64,000 nt of DNA from Kaiparowitsia implicata GSE-PSE-MK54-09C (GTDB lineage: Bacteria > Cyanobacteriota > Cyanobacteriia > Elainellales > Elainellaceae): NCBI GenBank assembly GCA_019359435.1, contig JAHHHI010000093.1, positions 1 to 64,000 of the forward strand. The letters are read 5' to 3'. Each line of letters opens with the position of its first letter. Position 1 is the stretch's first letter. The notes under the pieces are model-generated. The model made no database searches. It saw only the letters and a program-made list of their open reading frames with translations, and had not been told where the DNA came from. Below, piece after piece: positions 38,669 to 53,051 of the stretch. The position numbers and the translations under genes were made by a program.

Positions 38669-39451
38669 CTACTGCAGTTGGGCAAAGTTGAAGGGTGCCG
38701 TGAAATTGTTGTAGCGAATTTTGAGGCGGCTCTCAAACTGGGCATCGAGTGCTTCTACATGTTGCCCAAATGCAGCTTCGTCATTCCAGGGAATCAGGTA
38801 GGCAGTGTTGAAGATCATCTCAGGGGACATCGGGGCGTTTTCAACCACCTCGGTCGCTAAAGGGTTAAGAGTAGTACGGAAGGCGTTGAGGATATGCTGC
38901 TGGCGATCGCCCATGGCTTGTTCTACCGACTGCCCAATCTTGACGATTTCGTCCATGCTGAGGGTTTTGCCTTCAAGGCGATCGCGCTCTGCTCGCAGGT
39001 CGGTATTCTCTTGCATCAGTTGTTGCAGTTCTTGGGGCTGATCCCAAAACAGCTTAACGCTCACCTCGCGGTGCCCCTCCAGCTTAGAAAATAGGGTTTT
39101 CAGCGCATCACCCTGGGGCTGAGTCAGTTGCGATCGCACCAACTGCCAGTCTTCAATCACTAACCCAAATTGCAGCGGCAGCAACGTCCGACAACCTTGC
39201 TCCATTGCGCTTTCTAGCACCCGCTCATGACGCATCAGATTCCGTCGACTGGCAAGATACACTTTCTTTTTCTTCGGCTTACCGTCAGGTGTCTTCTCCT
39301 CATCTGCCTTGAGCGATGCCGCTTCAGAATAGAGGAAGATGAACCCATCTAAATCTTGCGCTTGAACAGGCTGATCATCCAACCCGGCTAGATCAATCTG
39401 TTGCGGCCCAGGTTTGGGGAAAATGCCGTAAAGGTACAGTGGATTTGTCAT
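38669..39451 (-). CDS. gvpF: Gas vesicle protein GvpF/GvpL
   Basis: A 260-aa GvpL/GvpF family protein. It opens LYLYGIFPKPGPQQIDLAGL, contains the family run RTLLPLQFGLVIED and a central coiled-coil (LQQLMQENTDLRAERDRLEG), and ends FESRLKIRYNNFTAPFNFA, typical of the C-terminal domain. GvpF binds GvpA during vesicle growth. Cyanobacteria often have one protein for F and L, so the letter is arbitrary. A Lys-rich insert (GKPKKKKVYLASRRN) is unusual in charge. It lies with gvpG but apart from the structural genes. Confidence 0.9.
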   Translation of the reverse strand: MTNPLYLYGIFPKPGPQQIDLAGLDDQPVQAQDLDGFIFLYSEAASLKADEEKTPDGKPKKKKVYLASRRNLMRHERVLESAMEQGCRTLLPLQFGLVIEDWQLVRSQLTQPQGDALKTLFSKLEGHREVSVKLFWDQPQELQQLMQENTDLRAERDRLEGKTLSMDEIVKIGQSVEQAMGDRQQHILNAFRTTLNPLATEVVENAPMSPEMIFNTAYLIPWNDEAAFGQHVEALDAQFESRLKIRYNNFTAPFNFAQLQ

Positions 39452-44457: not shown

Positions 44458-44720
44458 GAGCGGCTGACCCAGTGCTGCGCACCGTGTCAGACAGGTCAGA
44501 AACTTCAAGCTCGTTTTAACTTGATCCCTCAACCTGTACCTGAGGAAGTTTCTTGAGAGTTCGGCTGCGGATGTCGGGCAATGAATTGAGAAGTGTAGGG
44601 TATAAACCCGCCCATGGTTGTGGAGAGTTGGCATCCTTCGCGCGCCGACTACTCACAAACCTAGGTAAACTGAAGCCGCAGAGCACTCGCTACTTCTCGC
44701 TACTTATTGAGGCGCGCACA

Positions 44721-47294
44721 ATGGGGCTGTCTGGTTTTTCAACAACGTTTAGCCAGTTGCATAGAGTGGGGCGGCGATCGCTCTGCGGAGTAACTGTGGG
44801 ACTTTTGGCTAGCCTGGGCTTGTTTCTACCGGCTGCGTCGAAACCCGCTAGCGCTGCGGAACGCATTCGCCTGACGCTAGCCCCGTTAGAAATCTCTATT
44901 TCTGTTGCAGAACTAGACACCTTTGCAAAAACTGGGGAAGCAACGGGCGGGCTACGGTTTTATCTGCAGCGATTGGATGAGCGTAGGCAGGCTGAGTTCC
45001 GCAGCTTTTTGCAACGGCGGTTAGACGTATCCCCTGAGGTGATTTCTCAGATTTCTTACTCGTTAATGGGTGAGCGAACGCTGCGGGAGCTGGGGCAAAT
45101 TATCCGCACTGACAATAATTTGGATGGGTTTCATGCGCTGCGTGGGGCATTGTTGCTGGCGGCCAGCGATCCCGAAGGCATGACGGTGGTGAACGTATTG
45201 CGGCGCTTTCCGGGCTATAGCGTGCGCCTGAATGCGGGGCAACTGCTGGCGCTGTGGCGTGAATTTGGGAATGTGCTGGATTATCGCGACTCTTCTGTTG
45301 AAGCAGTTCGCCAAGCCATGGTGGCAGAAAGTGTCGCTGAGCCCGTGGCTGATCCAACCAGTATGGCGAATTTAGCAACACGCGGTGAGTTCCGAGTTGA
45401 GCGGCGGGTGTTGGAGTTGCGGCGCGATCGCCAATCTCTCAATGGAGCTGCAATTGAACGCCCGTTTGGAGTAGACGTGTTTTTGCCGATAGGGGTAACA
45501 CAACCTGCGCCCGTAGTGGTGATTTCGCATGGGCTAGGGTCTACTCGCTCTGCCTTTGCGTATTTAGGAGAGCACTTGGCGACCCACGGCTTTGTCGCTG
45601 TCATTCCTGACCATATCGGCAGTGGTGAAGAAGCCCGCACTGCGTTGCTAGACGGCGTGCTGGGCAGCGACATTAACCCGGTAGAATACATCGATCGCCC
45701 GCTGGATATTCAATTCACACTGGATTATCTGGAACAACTGGCTGAACGTGATCCGGAGTGGACGGGGCGGATGAACCTGCAACAGGTGGGGGTCATTGGG
45801 CATTCCTTTGGCGGCTATACGGCGCTGGCGTTAGCAGGCGCACCCCTCAACAGTCCTCGGCTGCAGCAGACCTGCAGCCAGCCGCTATTTTCGCTGAATG
45901 CAGCCCCCATTTTGCAGTGTATTGCCAGCCGACTGCCGCCCTATGCGTATCCCCTTCGGGATGAGCGCATTCAGGCTGCCTATGCCATTAGCCCCATCAC
46001 GAGCGTGGCCTTGGGGCCTGAGGGGTTAAGTCAGATTCAGGTGCCGACGATGATTTCGGCGGGCAGCAATGACTTTATTGCCTCGATTGTGCAGGAGCAA
46101 ATTCACCCGTTTCTGTGGCTGACGACTGAGCCCAAGTATCTGGCGGTGATGGTGCCTAGTGGTCATGTGGTGGCCGATGCCACCCCCACTAACACTGATC
46201 CAACCTCTCAGCAGTTGTCGTTGCTGCTGGCGGGTGCAGAACCAGAGTTAGGGCGCGACTATGTGCAAGAGCTGAGCTTGGCGTTTATGCAGGCGCATCT
46301 GGCCGATCGGCCAGAATTTGCTGACTACTTGACTGCTTCCTATGTGCAAGCGACGAGTCGCGAGGGGTTAGATCTGTTGCTGGTGCGATCGCTCACCCCA
46401 GAGCAATTGGAGCTGGCCTATGAGGCCCCGCCGCCGATTCCGATTTTTCCAGAGTTGCCTGCGGTGGCATCCACCACGCGAAATCCTGTGTTGGGGGCGA
46501 TCGCCCAAACCGGCCAACTGCGCGCCGCCATCCGGCAAGATGCGGCACCCTTTGGGTATATCGGGAGCAACGGCCAGCTTACGGGGTTCTGTTTAGACCT
46601 GCTGACAGAACTTGCTGCTGACTTAGAGCAACAGCTAGGGCGCTCAGTAGAGCTGGAGGTGGTTGCTGTATCTACATTGGACACGCGTGTTGATTTAGTG
46701 CGCCGTGGCGCAGCGCAGGTAGAGTGCGGCCCCAATAGCATCCCAGCCGAAGACTCCCGCGTGGCCTACTCTACCCCCTTCTTCTTGACAGGGACGCACT
46801 TCCTCGTGCCGAGCGCAAATGGGGATGAGATTGATCCACTATCGGGATTGCAAAACCTGCGCGTGGGTGTCCAGCGCGGTACGACGACTGAACGGTTTGT
46901 GCGGCAGCGCTATCCCGATGCCTTAGTCGTCGCCCTAGAAGGCAGCGGCAGCGAGGTGCAGGCGCTACAGCAAGAAGTGGTCGATACCGTTGCAGGCGAT
47001 GGCATCTTGCTGTTGGCCGAAGCCGAGCAGCAGGGTTTAGGAGCCACGGTGCAACTCTCCCCAGCAACGCCGCTAAGCTGCGAGCCCTATGGCCTCATCC
47101 TGCCCGAAGGCGATGCCGAATGGACTTCTACGGTTAACCAGTTCATCAGCTCGCCTGCATTTCAGCCCGTTTGGGAAACCTGGTTTGGCACGGAGCTTTA
47201 TGACTATATTTTTCTTGGCCTAGATTTCTGCGCGCTTCAGCCTGAGCCAAATGGGGCAAACGGACTAACTGGACGCGAGTTCGATACCCCGTAG
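44721..47294 (+). CDS. DUF1400-type alpha/beta hydrolase fused to a family 3 solute-binding domain
   Basis: An 857-aa exported protein. Order: signal peptide 1-45 (cleavage after ASA), DUF1400-like helical domain about 48-190 (RIRLTLAPLEISISVAELDT), alpha/beta hydrolase about 245-545, and SBP_bac_3 domain about 588-835. The hydrolase shows the HG loop (ISHG, H270), the nucleophile elbow GHSFGG with S362, and likely D451 (SNDF) and H482 (SGHV) completing the triad. The C-terminal part has RAAIRQDAAPFGYIG, LTGFCLDLLTELA and DLVRRGAAQVECG, typical of amino-acid-type binding proteins. It is one uninterrupted frame. ATG 44721 has GAGG at 9 nt; upstream codons to 44553 precede the signal peptide. 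Substrates are unknown. Confidence 0.85.
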   Translation: MGLSGFSTTFSQLHRVGRRSLCGVTVGLLASLGLFLPAASKPASAAERIRLTLAPLEISISVAELDTFAKTGEATGGLRFYLQRLDERRQAEFRSFLQRRLDVSPEVISQISYSLMGERTLRELGQIIRTDNNLDGFHALRGALLLAASDPEGMTVVNVLRRFPGYSVRLNAGQLLALWREFGNVLDYRDSSVEAVRQAMVAESVAEPVADPTSMANLATRGEFRVERRVLELRRDRQSLNGAAIERPFGVDVFLPIGVTQPAPVVVISHGLGSTRSAFAYLGEHLATHGFVAVIPDHIGSGEEARTALLDGVLGSDINPVEYIDRPLDIQFTLDYLEQLAERDPEWTGRMNLQQVGVIGHSFGGYTALALAGAPLNSPRLQQTCSQPLFSLNAAPILQCIASRLPPYAYPLRDERIQAAYAISPITSVALGPEGLSQIQVPTMISAGSNDFIASIVQEQIHPFLWLTTEPKYLAVMVPSGHVVADATPTNTDPTSQQLSLLLAGAEPELGRDYVQELSLAFMQAHLADRPEFADYLTASYVQATSREGLDLLLVRSLTPEQLELAYEAPPPIPIFPELPAVASTTRNPVLGAIAQTGQLRAAIRQDAAPFGYIGSNGQLTGFCLDLLTELAADLEQQLGRSVELEVVAVSTLDTRVDLVRRGAAQVECGPNSIPAEDSRVAYSTPFFLTGTHFLVPSANGDEIDPLSGLQNLRVGVQRGTTTERFVRQRYPDALVVALEGSGSEVQALQQEVVDTVAGDGILLLAEAEQQGLGATVQLSPATPLSCEPYGLILPEGDAEWTSTVNQFISSPAFQPVWETWFGTELYDYIFLGLDFCALQPEPNGANGLTGREFDTP

Positions 47295-50814: not shown

Positions 50815-53004
50815 CTAGCTAGTAATCGTGCCAGTGAGGGGCGAGCTCGCGCTGGCCATATTCTGGATCGGAATGCGCCCTGCCAGATACGCCAACCGCC
50901 CAGCCACCGTTGCCAGCCCCATCGCCCGACCCATGGCAACTGGATTTTTTGCCTGGGCGATCGCTGTATTGATAAGCAACGCCGAAGCCCCCAGTTCCAT
51001 AGCATGGGCGGCTTCACTTGGGGAGCCGATACCCGCATCCACCACCACAGGCACCTTAGACGTTTCCACAATAATGCGGATGTTGGCCTCGTTTTGAATG
51101 CCCTGCCCTGAGCCAATGGGCGACCCCAACGGCATCACCGTTGCGCAGCCAGCCTCTTCTAGTCGCTTAGCCAGCAAGGGGTCAGCGTTGATATAGGGCA
51201 ATACCGCAAACCCCTCCTTCACCAATTGCTCAGCCGCCTGAAGTGTGCCGATAGGGTCTGGCAGCAGATACTTCGCATCGGGAATCACTTCCAGCTTGAC
51301 GAAGTTGTTGTTTTCTTGCCCCAGTAGCTTTGCCATCTCACGCCCCAACCGCGCTACCCGCACCGCTTCCTCCGCTGTTTTGCAGCCTGCAGTATTGGGC
51401 AACATCCAAATCTTTGACCAGTCGAGCGCTTCGGCGAGGCCTTCATGCCCAGGTGCTTTGGTTTGCACCCGACGCACCGCCACCGTCACAATTTCGCAGC
51501 CGCTGGCACTGACGCTCTGGCGCATCGTGTCAAAGTCAGGATATTTGCCCGTGCCGGTCATGAGACGAGACCTGAAGGTGCGACCCGCAATGGTGAGAGG
51601 CGCATCCTCTGGGAGTGCGGGTGCAGAAGATTCAGTAAACTGAACAGCATCAACAAGAGTGGGATAGTGCAGCATGGTAGGCGTTGACGAAGGCGTTGAC
51701 GAGGAAGACCGAGATGGCAGAAATTGTGGGATCGACGCAGCGGCAGCGGGTGGCACTGGGGAATGGACAAAGCGCCGCCAAGAAAAAGCTGAGAGCAGAG
51801 CCTCAGGCGATTCTCTCTCAGACGGTACGGTCGAGTGCCCCAAGACTTGATCTGCCAGAAGCTGCGCCGTAATGGGAGCCAGCAAAATGCCGTTGCGGTG
51901 ATGCCCCACGGCCAGACTCAGGTTATCGCAAAGGCTGCTGCCCAAAATTGGCAGCTCATCGGGGGTGGCTGGACGGAAGCCCCACCAGCGCTCTTGGATG
52001 GGAAACTCTGCTAAGCCAGGGCATAGGCGGATCGTGGCTTGCAGCAATGCACCCAAGCCCGCTGGGGTGTTGCCGGGGATAAACCCAACCGCTTCACTGG
52101 TGGCCCCAATCACAATGCGCCCATCGCGCCGCGGCACAATGTACACATCGTCGCCAAACAGCACCCGCTGCAGCGGCAACCCATGAGCATAACCAGGGGG
52201 CATCGTCAGCGACAGCATTTGCCCTTTGCGCGGCGTGACGGGAATGGGCAACAGGTCTGACGTCCAGGCTCCGGTCGCTAAGACATAATGATCCGCCTGC
52301 CAGTCGCCTTCGCTGGTTTTGAGGCAGGCGATTTTCTGCGAGCTGCCGCTGTTGAATGCCCCGCTCTGCTGTTCTAAACCCGTGACGGCAACGCCCTCAC
52401 GAATGACCACGCCTGCGGCACGGGCTGCTGCCCGCAGTGCTATTGCTAGCGCCCGGTTATCGACTTGCCCATCTTCGGGATACCACCAGCCGCCCGTGAT
52501 GGCGTGGCTTAGCCCCGACTGCGCTTGGTGCATTGCCTCAGCACTGAGCCACAACGCTCCAGCGGGGGATGTGGCAGCCCCATTGGGTGGGGTGGGTGTA
52601 GAACGCTGCAGCGCATCTAGTGACTTGAATGAACTAGATGCAGGGGATTGATGCGGCGCATTTGTCAGGTGTGGCGGGCTAGAGTCGGAGTTCTCGTCTA
52701 CCGGGGCGAAGGTGGGTGCCAAAATGCCGCAGGGCCAGTAGCCTGCTGACTCGCCACTGAGGTCTTCGAGCTTTGCGACCCAGTCACCATAGAGCGCACG
52801 ACTGCGCAGGCAGATGTCTTGCATTGCACCAGACGCAAACGCTTCGGCGTGGGGAGCTAACATTCCGGCTGCAGCATGGGTGGCAGCTTGCTCAAAGTCT
52901 CGGCTGAGGACGGTGACTGATGCGCCCCGGAGCTTGAGTTCAGTGGCGATCGCCAACCCGACAATGCCGCCGCCAATAATTAAAATATCGTCTGTAAAAG
53001 GCAT
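50815..53004 (-). CDS. thiOG: Fused glycine oxidase ThiO - thiazole synthase ThiG
   Basis: A 729-aa bifunctional enzyme of thiamine synthesis. The N-terminal part (1 to about 400) is a FAD glycine oxidase: dinucleotide fold [20 protein letters not shown], a second FAD contact [12 protein letters not shown] and [14 protein letters not shown]-like [15 protein letters not shown]; it makes dehydroglycine. A Ser/Pro-rich linker of about 70 residues follows. The C-terminal part (about 470-729) is ThiG, opening [20 protein letters not shown], with the DXP-binding lysine in FVKLEVIPD and [20 protein letters not shown]. The fusion is known in cyanobacteria and would pass the unstable imine between sites. 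ATG 53004 (MPFTDDIL) is preferred to 53025. Confidence 0.94.
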
Positions 53005-53051
53005 AAAGGCACGGGCGTAATACAAAGTCCCATCAGGGAAGCGGCAACGGC

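Follow-up and report, generated by a model that had tools for sequence, protein, structure and literature searches.

A conserved cyanobacterial protein family joining a DUF1400 hydrolase to a family 3 solute-binding domain

The closest described relatives of the protein presented here are the secreted cyanobacterial hydrolases carrying the domain DUF1400 (PF07176). Like the fusion, these proteins combine an N-terminal DUF1400 domain with a serine hydrolase displaying the same catalytic triad. The unfused DUF1400 hydrolases that were listed have nothing beyond the hydrolase and mostly occupy frames of some 525 to 620 amino acids, whereas the fusion adds a solute-binding protein (SBP) domain. 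In the accessible portions of the literature, DUF1400 is represented by a domain preceding a hydrolase, by a hydrolase annotated without function or by a partial open reading frame (ORF) beside the hox genes; in these same portions, searched for DUF1400 and PF07176, neither a tested function nor a fusion was mentioned. A search for fusions between SBPs and hydrolases, made on titles and abstracts and with subscription papers and domain-architecture databases outside its range, gave nothing relevant, and the architecture may already be listed in such databases.

The SBP_bac_3 family, to which the added domain belongs, serves amino-acid ABC importers. Among the NCBIfam models, the best one for this part of the protein is GrrP (TIGR04262), a model named as an orphan SBP, with a score of 88.2 bits that is below the cut-off of 190 bits; the fusion also differs from the GrrP proteins by being joined to an enzyme. 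The literature searched for GrrP, GrrM and GrrA returned nothing. A layout of the same kind is encountered in MltF, a membrane-bound lytic transglycosylase whose N-terminal regulatory domain is SBP-like. Muropeptides that engage the regulatory domain of MltF switch the enzyme on by opening the catalytic active site (PMC10746161). The likeness with the fusion is one of layout, a binding module being fused to a hydrolytic enzyme of the envelope; the two enzymes are unrelated, the order of the domains is opposite, and control by a ligand is, for the fusion, a possibility.

The fusion was analysed in a stretch of 64,000 nucleotides from Kaiparowitsia implicata GSE-PSE-MK54-09C (contig JAHHHI010000093.1), hereafter the window. 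Sequence comparisons reveal a conserved cyanobacterial family whose members combine, in one chain, a predicted DUF1400 serine hydrolase with a family 3 SBP domain. Our confidence in the architecture itself is high, close to certainty, and our confidence in the mechanism is less than half.

The fusion gene and its hydrolase part

The fusion gene, delimited from frame calls and homologues, occupies positions 44721 to 47294 of the forward strand and encodes 857 amino acids, from the ATG at 44721 to the TAG at 47292-47294, with no internal stop. Upstream, the same frame stays open as far as a TTG at 44553, so that the exact start is a choice. The ATG at 44721 is located before a plausible Sec signal peptide (residues 1 to about 46; positions 44721 to 44858, forward strand), judged by eye and accompanied by similar N-termini in the aligned relatives. 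The single uninterrupted and exported frame described in the earlier note is retained, the putative signal peptide being recognised by eye only. Promoter and terminator scans yielded no more than they did on shuffled sequence.

A Pfam search with profiles for DUF1400, alpha/beta hydrolase and SBP_bac_3, as suggested in the earlier note, reported all three above their cut-offs. The DUF1400 domain covers residues 45 to 171 (positions 44853 to 45233, forward strand) and is recognised by PF07176 with 132.2 bits for a cut-off of 23.4, which places the protein in the DUF1400 family and agrees with the DUF1400-like domain noticed before. DUF1400, SBP_bac_3 and a hydrolase model were all matched in the ten members of one set of fusions (A1).

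The alpha/beta hydrolase domain, delimited from Pfam, alignment and fold match, extends approximately from residue 212 to residue 558 (positions 45354 to 46394, forward strand). Several alpha/beta hydrolase models, including PF12740 above its cut-off, match within residues 249 to 422. The residues Ser362, Asp451 and His482, already proposed as the triad from the single sequence, occupy columns that are invariant in 20/20 fused and 25/25 unfused hydrolases, and Cys385 and Cys400 are likewise invariant in these 45 proteins. Compared with the PDB using VIA-align, the predicted fold is shared with PET hydrolases, with a cutinase and with a ferulic acid esterase, at Z about 26 and identities of 17-24%. 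With this fold and with Ser, Asp and His in the expected order, the domain is a putative serine hydrolase of the PETase/cutinase-like type. One position of the loop HPGS separates the fusion clade from the other sequences: residue 299 is Ile, Val, Leu or Met in all 25 hydrolases of the fusion clade, and proline in 19/20 hydrolases outside it, the latter being the unfused hydrolases that best match the query and not an even sample. This change could be older than the fusion.

A structure model of residues 44 to 840, calculated from 13 sequences, displays a mean pLDDT of 82.7 and a pTM of 0.64, a value that leaves the relative arrangement of the domains unfixed; the first model, based on 10 sequences, had reached an overall pLDDT of 60.3 and was poor in the hydrolase. 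The sole run of at least three residues with a pLDDT below 50 corresponds to a predicted flexible linker at residues 579 to 587 (positions 46455 to 46481, forward strand), close to residue 588 where the junction had been placed.

The binding domain and its pocket

The family 3 solute-binding domain comprises residues 590 to 838 approximately (positions 46488 to 47234, forward strand) and contains Cys624, Cys669, Cys787 and Cys837. SBP_bac_3 (PF00497) matches residues 600 to 810 with 43.5 bits for a cut-off of 26.4, and the predicted domain superimposes on the glutamate-bound structure 5eyf (Z 27.8, 2.0 Å over 232 residues, 23% identity), so that profile and fold agree on the family. Among the other PDB matches, glutamate- and arginine-binding proteins score about equally with ancestral cyclohexadienyl dehydratase (CDT) proteins. 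The matches obtained for both parts of the protein represent common folds and name neither the substrate of the hydrolase nor the ligand of the SBP domain.

In amino-acid SBPs, the arginine of the TxxR motif grips the carboxylate of the ligand. In the alignment, the column of this arginine (Asp678 in the query) contains arginine in none of the 31 fusions and in none of the five nearest unfused SBPs, whereas it does in all 13 of the more distant, GrrP-like orphans; the term GrrP-like is a working label, as the three of the 13 unfused SBPs that were scanned score 141-156 bits and are thus also under 190. Judged by this residue as aligned, the fusions do not conform to the amino-acid ABC type of SBP. 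An arginine three residues before the canonical place is present in 17/31 fusions and 5/5 nearest unfused SBPs. The query itself displays a proline there and Arg680 two residues after the canonical place, so some arginine could still reach the pocket.

The cysteines follow an opposite distribution: Cys624 and Cys787 are conserved in 31/31 fusions and 5/5 nearest unfused SBPs, and in 0/13 GrrP-like proteins. Cys837 is found in the 26 fusions that are aligned at this position, the five others being gapped. From co-occurrence, the pairs Cys624-Cys787 and Cys669-Cys837 might form disulfides, which is only a guess. The residues 610, 611, 721 and 760 correspond to positions lining the pocket in amino-acid SBPs, where the position of Asp760 faces the amine of the ligand. 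Pro610 is invariant and Phe611 nearly so among ten aligned fusions, Thr or Ser occupies position 721 in 28/31 fusions, and Asp occupies position 760 in 25/31. The fold is complete, but the pocket is altered, with the arginine lost and two cysteines gained. Of the complete-looking, amino-acid-type binding domain that had been read at about residues 588 to 835, the complete fold stands and the canonical amino-acid binder does not.

A second fusion in a relative (genome G011; L099:3203-5716, reverse strand) has an open frame of 837 amino acids in which most of lobe 2 of the SBP domain is gone, and SBP_bac_3 is no longer reported at E 1e-5 by Pfam. With lobe 2 mostly lost, the clamshell of this copy cannot close.

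Distribution and history of the fusion

After removal of duplicates, 31 distinct frames were retained that contain both a hydrolase and an SBP domain, two of them cut by contig ends and several retrieved on stretches that stop short of the beginning of DUF1400. A further fusion (L100, genome G405) ends after lobe 1 and was set aside; an assembly break is likely, because the genome has a lobe 2 match on a different contig. Besides the query, the genome of K. implicata contains another complete fusion (G000:C84, 41% identity over residues 14 to 838), three unfused DUF1400 hydrolases and one match covering the DUF1400 region only. The joining of two genes by a sequencing or assembly error, which the earlier note expected resequencing to show as a stop codon near position 46450, was considered and is ruled out in practice: no stop codon interrupts the frame around the junction, and the same join occurs in 31 distinct frames, in single-contig as well as draft assemblies and twice in the genome of K. 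implicata. No point in favour of such an artefact was found, and we give it a practically negligible probability.

In the order of the window, DUF1400 hydrolases are present in 36/36 genomes, mostly in more than one copy, and the fusion in eight of these genomes, K. implicata included (one of the eight cut by a contig end). Among 242 genomes sampled across the class, at least 18, again including K. implicata, have an SBP match in a frame of at least 738 amino acids, a count that does not include weak matches or two further genomes cut by contig ends. The fusion is absent from most sampled genomes. At E 0.001, the query finds something in 355/386 genomes of the phylum, the weak matches being possibly to alpha/beta hydrolases or SBPs of any kind. 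A scan of one genome per species across 84,980 species confirmed 11 relatives, nine of them complete fusions; the record titles of all 11 name cyanobacteria, including Leptolyngbya FACHB-8, Microseira wollei, Lyngbya aestuarii and Baaleninema simplex. The patterns used, six short peptides taken from the query, recover close relatives only, so absence outside cyanobacteria is not demonstrable from it. None of 199 matching plasmid records covers 80% of the query, and 66 pattern matches in viral contigs contained no relative. Of the possibility, raised earlier, that the architecture is already common and characterised, the recurrence across cyanobacteria is confirmed and a characterisation was not found in the literature searched.

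Phylogenetic trees were obtained separately for the two parts of the protein. The fused SBP domains (n=30) form one clade apart from 18 unfused relatives, with support 99/93 in a tree rooted on two distant SBPs whose long branches meet each other; the same split is recovered without a root (99/94). In the hydrolase tree, a clade with support 100/98 contains all 20 fused hydrolases together with five unfused copies, and forcing the fused hydrolases together is rejected (p-AU 0.0004). As judged from these topologies, both trees are best explained by a single ancient fusion, after which the tail was lost several times, with repeated transfer of the tail as a possible alternative history. No remnant of an SBP domain was found behind the unfused paralogue of K. 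implicata in this clade (L003) or behind its four other unfused members. If the tail was lost several times, the hydrolase can persist without it, which fits an accessory role.

For the four pairs with a usable dS (a fifth was saturated), dN/dS values of 0.08, 0.21, 0.08 and 0.18 were obtained for the SBP domain and of 0.05, 0.09, 0.06 and 0.06 for the hydrolase; with dS of 0.8-1.25, these values are rough. The SBP domain is less constrained than the hydrolase in all four pairs and is, by these ratios, under purifying selection.

Genomic surroundings and candidate roles

In the window, the neighbours of the fusion gene on the same strand are a polysaccharide deacetylase gene 1.2 kb upstream, with an unassigned ORF of 106 amino acids in the intervening gap, and an MBOAT acyltransferase gene 0.7 kb downstream. 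The neighbouring ORFs of 19 of the 31 fusion loci were compared all against all, Pfam being run on a part of them. Apart from the fusion itself, an ABC ATPase family occurs in three loci and every other family in at most two. Searched singly against a collection of loci, an AI-2E transporter, a CobT-like protein, GvpF, MBOAT, a small exported protein and a PotD-like protein were each found at one or two fusion loci. No permease family recurs across the 19 neighbourhoods, and a conserved partnership with permease and ATPase is thus lacking in them, a partner encoded elsewhere being possible. Around the five nearest unfused SBPs, the neighbours examined (four by Pfam, the rest by eye) include no recognisable ABC permease; among them are genes for ferrochelatase, semialdehyde dehydrogenase and AI-2E family transporters.

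Several individual loci deserve description. In Leptolyngbya sp. FACHB-8 (L009:1139-8472), an ABC operon composed of an ATPase, an SBP_bac_8 protein and two permeases immediately precedes the fusion on the same strand; no other fusion was seen next to such an operon. About 2.6 kb upstream of the second fusion of K. implicata (L095) is a distantly PotD-like gene (24% identity). These two observations favour uptake. In two genomes of one family, the unfused sister SBP is located beside an AI-2E family transporter gene (L080:7346-9979 and L083:7000-9731) and also beside a gene named by eye as triosephosphate-isomerase-like. In Lyngbya aestuarii (L012:4198-8439), an unfused DUF1400 hydrolase and a fusion are in tandem, 66 bases apart, and the tree shows that this unfused hydrolase is not a close relative of its fused neighbour. 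A GvpL/GvpF gas vesicle gene of the window (38669 to 39451, reverse strand) is located about 5 kb from the fusion, and in L010 the distance between a homologue (66% identity) and the fusion is about 4.6 kb. The window also contains, at 50815 to 53025 on the reverse strand, an FAD-dependent oxidoreductase (DAO) and ThiG in one frame, the oxidoreductase part being presumably ThiO-like.

The role of the binding domain can be read in several ways. The earlier note had suggested that it might capture the product or substrate of the hydrolysis. For uptake, the hydrolase would free a small molecule that the fused SBP hands to an ABC permease, in line with the service of the SBP_bac_3 family to amino-acid importers, with the position of the Leptolyngbya fusion directly downstream of an ABC operon and with the ABC ATPase family found in 3/19 neighbourhoods. 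This operon, however, already has its own SBP, no permease family recurs around the fusions or was recognised beside the nearest unfused SBPs, and the best NCBIfam model, below its cut-off, is of the orphan type. As no gene family occurs in more than three of the 19 neighbourhoods, product capture for uptake has lost support and is quite improbable. A conversion of the SBP domain itself into an enzyme, as happened when CDT arose from an amino-acid SBP, would be compatible with the ancestral CDT proteins among the best matches and with a CDT/chorismate mutase fusion in the PDB (8cq4); these CDT matches nevertheless reflect the common fold, glutamate- and arginine-binding proteins matching about equally, and we consider this conversion very improbable.

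The domain could also be a worn-out clamshell, retained as a structural or docking piece (e.g. towards an envelope glycan or a protein surface) without ligand-driven closing. The carboxylate arginine missing from every fusion, the large deletion of lobe 2 in L099 and a constraint weaker than that of the hydrolase point in this direction, and the two further cysteines may stiffen the domain. On the other hand, the dN/dS of the SBP domain is still 0.08-0.21, the four positions assigned to the pocket are kept in the proportions given above, and the fold match is good over the whole domain. This reading is somewhat unlikely.

We tentatively prefer, at a little under an even chance, an exported putative esterase to which a ligand-binding module is flexibly tethered as an accessory; this module would act in sensing or docking and not as an uptake protein, which keeps the ligand sensor suggested in the earlier note as a candidate. 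Sensing or docking is preferred over uptake because no transporter travels along with the fusion, the tail appears to be repeatedly lost while the enzyme is retained, and the domain is under selection. The protein would be exported and the hydrolase would cleave an ester, whether periplasmic or extracellular. The C-terminal clamshell, carried by the short flexible linker, would bind a small molecule, and this would probably not be a standard alpha-amino acid gripped by the usual arginine. Binding would then either dock the enzyme near its substrate or switch its activity, and the SBP domain would not feed a transporter. A narrower version, rather unlikely in its full form, is that of a ligand-gated secreted esterase, an extracellular sensor-effector chain that would have arisen once in cyanobacteria and in which the C-terminal clamshell would control the hydrolase in response to a ligand outside the usual amino acids.

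A branch of the DUF1400 hydrolases with its own binding module offers a handle on this family, as knowing what the module binds may reveal the enzyme's substrate or its signal. If gating is true, these esterases would join the envelope enzymes that are controlled by a fused binding domain.
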